Shown piece after piece: positions 5,152 to 7,289 of a DNA stretch of 42,860 nt. Origin of the DNA: Porticoccaceae bacterium (lineage in GTDB: Bacteria; Pseudomonadota; Gammaproteobacteria; Pseudomonadales; Porticoccaceae). The notes under the pieces were generated by a model, which saw only the letters and a list, made by a program, of their open reading frames with translations, did not search any database and had not been told where the DNA came from. The first letter of the stretch is position 1. Every line of letters begins with the position of its first letter. Position numbers and translations under genes: made by a program. Location: assembly GCA_018664075.1 (NCBI GenBank), contig JABJOY010000061.1:1-42860 (forward strand), given 5' to 3'.

Positions 5152-6111
5152 CTATAGCCTTAGAGCAGCAAAAATCTCCCGGCGCAGGGGCTCAATTTCA
5201 TTGACCATATGATGGTTGGCATCGGCAATAATTTGCACCTCAAGCCCAGAGAGTTTGCTCTTAAACTGCTCGAGGTTGTATTGCCAGTTGAGGGTTTTAT
5301 CACCGGAACCCTGAATCAAATTAATCGGTCTGTCTGTGCCTGCAAACTGTTTAAATTCCGCAATCCAGTTGCTCAGTGCAGCAACCCATGCCATGGGCAC
5401 AGTGCGTGGCTGAAAGTAGTCTCGATGCTGGACAAAATCGAGGAACTCCTGATCAAAAGAACTGGGGCGAAACACCCGTTTCGACGACCGGCGAAAATGT
5501 TTTGCCAGCAAAAATAAACAGCGTTTTATAGTCCAGCTGTGGGGTTCCAGCAGCGGTGCCAGAAGATTCAACTTGCTAAACGGATAGTCGGATTGTGCAT
5601 CCTGCTGCATCAAATGTTTCAGCAAAATTGCCCCTCCCATACTTTGTCCAATGGCGTGCAGGGGCCCCTCGAACATAGTCTGACTTGCACTGATAACGGC
5701 ATTAAGTGCGCCGACATAGTCTGCGTAGTCTAGAATAAAACCAGGTTGGCCGGCAGAGAGGCCATGTCCGGGCAGGTCAAAACAGATTACATTGAGCCGG
5801 CAGTTGAGAAGGTGCTCAATTAGATGATTAAACAACCCGGTATGGTCCATATAGCCATGGACAACAATCACTGAGCCCCGGACGTTTTTTGGCGTCCAGC
5901 TCATGGTTACAACCGGTTGTTGCTGCAAATTAAGTGTGCCCGCACGGAGCTTGAGTTCCCCGAGGGGAATAGGCAGCTGATAATAGTTGAGGTATTGCAG
6001 CAGTGAAGCATTCGACTGGCTCGCTACTGGCATTTCACCGCAGAAAGCGGGCAGGTTTTTCCGCAGTGCTACGATCGAAGATTGATCGAAAGTGTCTGTC
6101 GACTGTCCCAT
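5152..6111 (-). CDS. Alpha/beta hydrolase, lysophospholipase/monoacylglycerol lipase-like
   Basis: Serine hydrolase of 319 residues. Visible elements are VIVVHGYMDHTGLFNHLIEHL (oxyanion/cap entry, about 81-101), DLPGHGLSAG (112-121) and the nucleophile elbow GQSMGG with Ser157. A late Asp (in GSGDKTLNW) and His (ADANHHMVNE) complete the likely triad. This pattern is that of PldB/monoacylglycerol lipase-type enzymes (Hydrolase_4). There is no signal peptide. It is convergent with yciA and divergent from the chimeric sigma gene. The real substrate is unknown. Confidence 0.85.
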   Translation of the reverse strand: MGQSTDTFDQSSIVALRKNLPAFCGEMPVASQSNASLLQYLNYYQLPIPLGELKLRAGTLNLQQQPVVTMSWTPKNVRGSVIVVHGYMDHTGLFNHLIEHLLNCRLNVICFDLPGHGLSAGQPGFILDYADYVGALNAVISASQTMFEGPLHAIGQSMGGAILLKHLMQQDAQSDYPFSKLNLLAPLLEPHSWTIKRCLFLLAKHFRRSSKRVFRPSSFDQEFLDFVQHRDYFQPRTVPMAWVAALSNWIAEFKQFAGTDRPINLIQGSGDKTLNWQYNLEQFKSKLSGLEVQIIADANHHMVNEIEPLRREIFAALRL

Positions 6112-6204
6112 AGACTATTCCAAAATTAAACCAGGGTTTAGGCGTGATTTCGGATTCCAGATTTCCATTCATGGCCCCCTGGAGGGTATCTTGTCAGATT
6201 GCCA

Positions 6205-6693
6205 ATGAATTACAAGAATAAAGATGGTGCCGATAAACTGGTCAAAGAGCACAGCTCAGCGCTGGTGCGCTTTTTAACTCGGCGCATGAAAAGCCGTGAA
6301 GATGCGGAGGATATTGCACAGGCCGCCTATCTGCGGCTCTACACTCTGGATGATCTGGGCCGGCTGTCCAACGCCAAAGCCTTTCTTTTTCAGGTGGCGG
6401 CAAATATGTCCATCGACCAGCTGCGACCTGAAGTGCTGAATAAAAATTATCTCGATAAAGAGATATCCAAGGTGCCAAAGGATAGAAGCAGGGAATCCGG
6501 CGCATGGTCGAGAGAGGATGTGCAAGTGAGCTATCACTTCAACTCTGGAGAGTCGCTGATTACTTTGGGAGTGGAAAATATTCTTGATCAGATGCCGCCA
6601 TTTCTGGGGTCAGCATTCAATGATAATTTTGATGTCAGAACCCATGACTCAACCGGTAGATTTGTCTACGCGAGGTTGAGTCACAGTCTGTAA
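6205..6693 (+). pseudogene. Chimera: ECF sigma factor N-terminus joined to TonB-dependent receptor C-terminus
   Basis: One open frame of 162 codons from the ATG at 6205 (a TTG at 6199 is the other possible start) holds two unrelated pieces. The first ~75 residues are region 2 of a FecI-type ECF sigma factor: SALVRFLTRRMKSREDAEDIAQAAYLRLY and AFLFQVAANMSIDQLR are visible. The last ~60 are the end of a TonB-dependent outer-membrane receptor: REDVQVSYHFNSGES, LGVENILDQMPPFLGSAFND, and the terminal beta strand GRFVYARLSHSL ending in hydrophobic Leu. Sigma region 4, any FecR-like anti-sigma gene and most of the receptor are missing. The simplest reading is a large internal deletion of a fecI-fecR-receptor locus that happens to keep frame. 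The join lies near 6480-6515. Function is unlikely; an assembly error is the alternative. Confidence 0.8.
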
Positions 6694-6698
6694 ATTGC

Positions 6699-7106
6699 TT
6701 ATTCGTCTGTGGAGAGTGAGATATCGTAAACGCCAGCTTCGCGAGCCTGGTCAGATATCTGAGCAAAAAGTTCGGTTTTCGACTTGGGATGTGCGCTGAT
6801 AACCACTTTGGCTTCTGGTTTCTCAGCATGCATTCTTTCGACATTAGCTCGCACTGAGCGAATGTCAATGCGACGGCCTTCAAGCATCAGTTCGTTGCTT
6901 TCAGAGATGCGGAAGACAATATTGGTGTTCTCGGAATCTGGTGGTGGCTGATCAGAGGTTGGTGGTCGGTTAACCCCAAGGCCTGATTCGTTAACAAAGG
7001 ATGCGGTTACAATAAAGAAGATCAGCATGATAAATACGACGTCCAGCATAGGTGTCATGTCGATCTGGGAGTCGTCTTCTTCTTTACGTCTTTTGCCTAG
7101 CGCCAT
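6699..7106 (-). CDS. exbD: ExbD/TolR family biopolymer transport protein
   Basis: Inner-membrane protein of 135 residues that, with an ExbB-type partner, uses the proton gradient to energise TonB. One N-terminal membrane helix (about 22-40) follows the signature DDSQIDMTPMLDVVFIMLIF; Asp22 is the conserved protonatable residue. The periplasmic domain follows, with AHPKSKTELFAQISDQAREAG near the end. The gene stands alone, with no exbB or tonB beside it, and converges with the sigma/receptor chimera 5 bases away. It is divergent from mutM. Length is normal. Confidence 0.93.
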   Translation of the reverse strand: MALGKRRKEEDDSQIDMTPMLDVVFIMLIFFIVTASFVNESGLGVNRPPTSDQPPPDSENTNIVFRISESNELMLEGRRIDIRSVRANVERMHAEKPEAKVVISAHPKSKTELFAQISDQAREAGVYDISLSTDE

Positions 7107-7289
7107 TTTCTATATTACCTTTCTAAAACCGCAAATTCTCTGAGTGGCGCATTCTACTGACTTTTTTAAAAAATGCTAGTAGAGGCCAAACCAGCACCCA
7201 ACCCGACATATGCTATTCTGACGTCTTAAAAGGCTCTGCACTACTAATGTTTGAGTCTATATCAAAAAATGTCGTTTTTAGGATAGCCA

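Follow-up and report, generated by a model that had tools for sequence, protein, structure and literature searches.

The open reading frame at positions 6205-6693 on the plus strand of the window, i.e. the whole stretch of 42,860 nucleotides analysed here, is very probably a young deletion pseudogene, formed by one recent loss of about 4.24 kb that joined the remains of two genes in frame by chance and left them nonfunctional. It spans 162 amino acids without an internal stop, and the N-terminal part of a FecI-like ECF sigma factor runs in it directly into the end of a TonB-dependent receptor, a reading made in the original prediction and upheld by the open frame, the Pfam match and the match to an intact relative. 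Most likely the fusion is an unremarkable pseudogene, if a very easily read one, among parallel losses. Taken alone it is of little weight; more useful is the finding that parallel losses form a series at a single locus.

The sigma half of the fusion comprises residues 1-92 (6205-6480, plus strand; region 2 and the start of the linker) and ends with K92, while an alternative TTG start for the frame lies at 6199. The only Pfam family detected up to E = 1 is Sigma70_r2 (PF04542), which covers residues 12-74 with E = 1.5e-10; region 4, responsible for -35 recognition, was not found at that threshold. FecI is the top NCBIfam match, under the model cut-offs (46.6 bits vs. 185 and 45.5 vs. 260). Residues 93-162 (70 amino acids, 6481-6690, with the stop codon extending to 6693, plus strand) constitute the receptor tail; the earlier estimate of about 60 residues was right in naming the C-terminal tail and slightly low in its length. 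When compared with G011, the nearest genome of the same genus (flanks 87-89% identical in DNA), fusion residues 90-162 (73 codons) share 92% identity with the receptor C-terminus and the sigma side shares 79% (query 1-118), and judged from these alignments the homology of each half is far above chance. The best seven of 80 named loci retrieved with the same query belong to Porticoccaceae or uncultured Pseudomonadales metagenome genomes. To the left lies an intact, divergent alpha/beta hydrolase gene (5152-6111, minus strand; Pfam Hydrolase_4, E = 8.5e-26) and to the right an intact, convergent exbD (ExbD/TolR; 6699-7106, minus strand; Pfam ExbD, E = 1e-26). The leader directly 5' of the sigma start codon (6187-6204, plus strand) is conserved in intact relatives and recognisable in scars.

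Between the same hydrolase and exbD, G011 possesses a sigma gene, a FecR gene and a TonB-dependent receptor gene, in that order. Its sigma factor (179 aa) carries both regions 2 and 4 (region 4: PF08281, E = 1.7e-12), its FecR-type anti-sigma protein (342 aa) carries DUF4880, and the longest open frame of its receptor (1026 aa) contains plug and barrel, with an STN match just below the Pfam cut-off (27.3 vs. 28.4). The three proteins match the NCBIfam models of FecI, FecR and FecA, each under the cut-off (104.8 and 101.9 bits for the sigma factor against the FecI models). The G011 cassette thereby resembles the FecI-FecR-FecA system of cell-surface signalling, with the three parts in the same order, whereas the window retains no more than sigma region 2 and the 70 C-terminal residues of the receptor. 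No FecR-type anti-sigma gene adjoins the fusion, although it is intact in G011, and no adjoining receptor with STN, plug and barrel is present in the window, where only residues 954-1026 of the G011 receptor are matched. Searches of the rest of the window's genome (G000; E <= 0.001) did not recover the deleted receptor part (best other receptor match 35% identical and partial) or the deleted FecR, the sole FecR match being 30% identical. The latter adjoins another ECF sigma gene on contig C34; hence G000 retains this mode of regulation in part. That a deletion had taken sigma region 4, the anti-sigma gene and the bulk of the receptor gene was foreseen from the sequence, and the comparison with relatives agrees: an intact fecI-fecR-receptor-like set lies between the same genes with collinear flanks, which also makes a recently lost surface-signalling uptake system a likely interpretation.

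From the sigma start to the receptor stop, the distance is 4,730 bp in G011 and 489 bp in the window, a difference of 4,241 bp. Alignment of the window to G011 by blastn yields two collinear blocks (1,722 columns at 88.7% and 7,564 columns at 87.2% identity), which overlap by 7 nt at 6476-6482 and leave 4,234 bp of G011 between them. At the junction (6476-6483, plus strand) the four bases AGGA (6479-6482) are common to both sides of the break, as judged from G011, and no longer repeat was seen there; at least four matching bases occurred in 1.7% of 20,000 random pairs of end points. The deletion reading holds because the intact cassette of G011 occupies the same place, the window is shorter by these 4,241 bp and AGGA is shared. 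A wrong assembly would offer another explanation, in which an intact cassette was misjoined or a mixture of strains collapsed and the organism keeps the full cassette. The genome is a draft (2.06 Mb, 104 contigs, 92.77% complete; the window is contig C10), which leaves this explanation a small chance, and in principle a misjoin might have been helped by the 4-7 nt that the two sides share. However, neither the receptor nor FecR turns up elsewhere in the assembly, collinearity with G011 extends over 1.7 kb on one flank and 7.6 kb on the other, the homology amounts to only four bases without a long repeat, and scars of the same cassette exist in other genomes; we therefore regard a misassembly as very unlikely.

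The AGGA on both sides indicates that the deletion, which we infer to be recent, probably proceeded through short-homology illegitimate recombination. The cassette, which presumably sensed and imported a substrate through surface signalling, would thereby have lost sigma region 4, its complete FecR-type anti-sigma gene and residues 1-956 of the receptor. The junction seems to have landed in frame by chance, so that the open frame would be a by-product. Both other frames of the right-hand piece contain stops, and an in-frame join is a 1-in-3 event; that the scar kept frame, as first noticed, is correct, but we read this as chance. An in-frame join as a sign of selection was rejected, given these odds and the out-of-frame join found in another genome (G004, below). 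The product, if made, would be a fragment bearing sigma region 2 and a tail that is probably disordered, and would lack -35 recognition and transport function; the fused gene may be heading towards the erased state of the relatives' loci. Chimeric pseudogenes derived from deletions are known in bacteria, where intergene DNA is lost and the start of one gene becomes joined to the end of another at short direct homology, and the fusion shows the same kind of loss and join. In the literature searched, which lacked most subscription journals, we found no report of a sigma/TonB-receptor fusion, and the search returned no bacterial report of deletion-derived chimeric pseudogenes. In a Salmonella study, all experimentally confirmed spontaneous rearrangements ended in short homologous repeats (PMC3411829); the junctions confirmed there exceeded 10 bp, in contrast to the 4 bases here, judged from G011.

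The genus set consists of 50 genomes, the window's own included, several of them incomplete drafts; mutM was detected in 44 and the hydrolase in 39. We compared the locus in 44 (43 genomes and the window), leaving out the six genomes without a mutM match, and called its genes from tblastn matches above 35 bits. The full cassette is possessed by 11 of the 44 (G011, G021, G028, G019, G013, G017, G018, G033, G002, G062 and G016, the last with exbD on another contig), and two more (G058 and G009) have cassette parts at contig ends; that of G009 spans two contigs, and its receptor gene carries a one-base frameshift. Scars are present in five (G000, G004, G025, G060 and G061), and half of the loci (22/44) lack any recognisable cassette gene; in them hydrolase and exbD lie just 125-208 bp apart, and the spacer gives no receptor match. 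The remaining four (G069, G030, G001 and G029) were not judged, as their contigs end there. Both halves in one frame were found in none of the 49 other same-genus genomes (at 1e-6, 26 of the 50 genomes gave any match, with G000 counted among the 50), and the alternative raised earlier, that many relatives might share the fusion, was accordingly not borne out.

We built a midpoint-rooted tree of 43 genomes from seven flanking proteins, omitting G031 because its data were too sparse; in it, all five scars fall next to, or in the midst of, genomes that bear the cassette. G000 groups with G011 (support 1.00) and G060 falls outside that pair (1.00), while G004 is placed with G028, G019 and G013 (0.98), G025 with G009 and G029 (0.93), and G061 with G062 (1.00). 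Moreover, the end points differ. The window joins sigma codon 92 to receptor residue 957, G004 joins about codon 18 to about residue 927 out of frame, and G025 joins about codon 57 to about residue 926-930, followed by further loss, stops and a frameshift, whereas G060 and G061 retain the leader and first codons only. The placement of the scars next to cassette bearers, together with their differing end points, suggests that the cassette was lost separately at least five times, if it was not regained. The other four scars involve the same locus, the same cassette and the same kind of loss, but only that of the window is joined in frame. One shared ancestral deletion was considered and rejected, since G011, G028, G019, G013 and G009 are situated among the stub lineages and the end points are not the same. 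The right-hand end points of G004 (locus L144, ~1550) and G025 (L186, ~1690) are nearly identical, at receptor residues ~926-930 near a CTCAA-like word, and perhaps mark a deletion-prone spot.

It could be argued that the receptor stub is kept as DNA for the convergent exbD, as its 3' end or terminator, with the fusion protein itself unselected; this would be compatible with a deletion scar. In the window, just a few bases separate the stop codons of receptor and exbD, and the deletions in G000, G004 and G025 all end within about the last 100 receptor codons. Yet no terminator-like site was found on the minus strand in 6050-7250, the 22 empty loci do with their short spacer and no receptor match, and the G025 stub is decaying. 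Selection of the stub as an exbD terminator was rejected for want of such a site on the minus strand, and we consider any service of the stub to exbD highly improbable.

For the fused frame itself, dN/dS against G011 is low, at 0.047 in the sigma part and 0.065 in the receptor tail, though much of the divergence behind these values may be older than the deletion. When G028, G019 and G013 were used to polarise the changes, 6 non-synonymous and 16 synonymous ones fell on the branch leading to G000, compared with 2 and 20 on that leading to G011; this excess of replacements is not significant (Fisher P = 0.24, with 9 further sites ambiguous). At 53 positions of the sigma factor that are invariant in 12 intact relatives, G000 is changed at three (V9A, R75P and H79N); when each relative was left out in turn (53-55 positions), seven showed no departure, three showed one and two showed two. 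A nine-sequence set that includes Simiduia, Microbulbifer and Pseudoteredinibacter likewise shows no variation at R75 and H79, though it does at V9, and R75 is within a QLRR stretch that we take to be in region 2.4. None of the 28 invariant positions of the receptor tail is changed in G000. The low dN/dS and the intact tail fit a recent deletion and equally fit a constrained fusion. The scar of G004 provides the out-of-frame control. Its sigma start opens a frame of only 38 residues, its receptor frame has no ATG, GTG or TTG before the 49th codon, and still its stub has likewise changed at 0/28 invariant tail positions. As this out-of-frame stub is equally preserved, preservation shows recency and not function, and an open chimeric frame with low dN/dS is by itself no evidence of function.

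In the AlphaFold2 model of the fusion (12-row alignment), mean pLDDT per block is 77-86 at residues 11-70 and 59 at 71-80; it falls below 50 at 90-125 and 134-162, i.e. in no fewer than 62 of the tail's 70 residues, and no strands are predicted in the tail. The model of the intact G011 sigma factor (nine-row alignment) has a pLDDT of 85 at 71-80, a contrast that is weak evidence because the two alignments differ and that of the fusion holds only two receptor rows.

The original prediction also put forward the idea that a translated product could bind core polymerase through region 2 and serve as a decoy. As a functional novelty of this kind, the fusion would still attach to the beta' subunit by its region 2 and so compete with other sigma factors. 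A review reports that FecI binds beta' (PMC9249621). The break falls just past the Pfam region-2 match, which means that the whole domain is retained; the region-2 helices are predicted with fair confidence, the leader and start codon are intact and dN/dS is low. If it were true, loss of a signalling cassette would at once have yielded a new regulator. Core binding by the fusion would be possible in principle, but nothing here favours it: the fusion occurs in 1 of 50 same-genus genomes, G000 itself, three invariant sigma residues are lost, two of them (R75P and H79N) at positions invariant in other genera too, the tail is predicted with very low confidence, and the out-of-frame stub of G004 is as well preserved. 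It is hardly conceivable that the deletion created a translated region-2-only fragment that docks on core and damps other ECF sigma factors. The absence of the fusion from the 49 other genomes, the lost invariant residues and the parallel in G004 led us to reject a functional decoy as the main reading, and we view it as extremely improbable.

For annotation, 6205-6693 is best described as a pseudogene remnant, neither a sigma factor nor a receptor. Arranged by state, the scars run from the clean in-frame join of G000 to the out-of-frame join of G004, the decaying stub of G025 and finally the bare leader of G060 and G061, a series that could help to date and compare the discarding of surface-signalling uptake systems. 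A 38-base leader query (6187-6224) scored above all 200 shuffles in the 12 genomes with an intact locus (the 11 with the full cassette and G009) and in the scars G004, G025, G060 and G061. A weaker trace, above all 200 single-base shuffles, was detected in seven of the 22 empty loci (G056, G027, G023, G015, G007, G065 and G070), whereas the other 15 did not exceed all shuffles. The seven traces suggest two more cassette losses; alternatively, they could be part of the hydrolase promoter. Spanning the sigma start codon, the leader at 6187-6224 is strongly conserved in intact genomes and outlives the cassette in old scars, perhaps as a component of the promoter of the divergent hydrolase gene. 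As a sigma-70 promoter it was rejected, the single match (TTGTCA, 17, AAGAAT) being no better than in shuffles (1 vs. a mean of 1.7).

Numbers of FecR matches vary among genomes that lost the cassette (G000 and G004 one each, G060 two, G025 three) and intact ones (G011 four, G028 one, G019 eleven), and by eye we saw no link in those seven between cassette loss and few remaining FecR genes. The receptor frameshift in G009 (L184, ~1629-1631) may be early decay or a sequencing error. In G034 (L181), a genome of ~1.3 Mb, there is no ftsE/ftsX match between ftsY and rpoH, while the others reaching that region have both. In G030 (L153, 4269-5606) ftsX is matched in two pieces ~420 bp apart, which may reflect inserted DNA, local divergence or faulty assembly. 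Three cassette-bearing genomes, G002 (L158), G062 (L177) and G033 (L164), have ~3.4-6.5 kb of extra DNA between receptor and exbD; in G002 and G062 this DNA includes a second match of TonB-receptor type, so genes are also gained at the locus.
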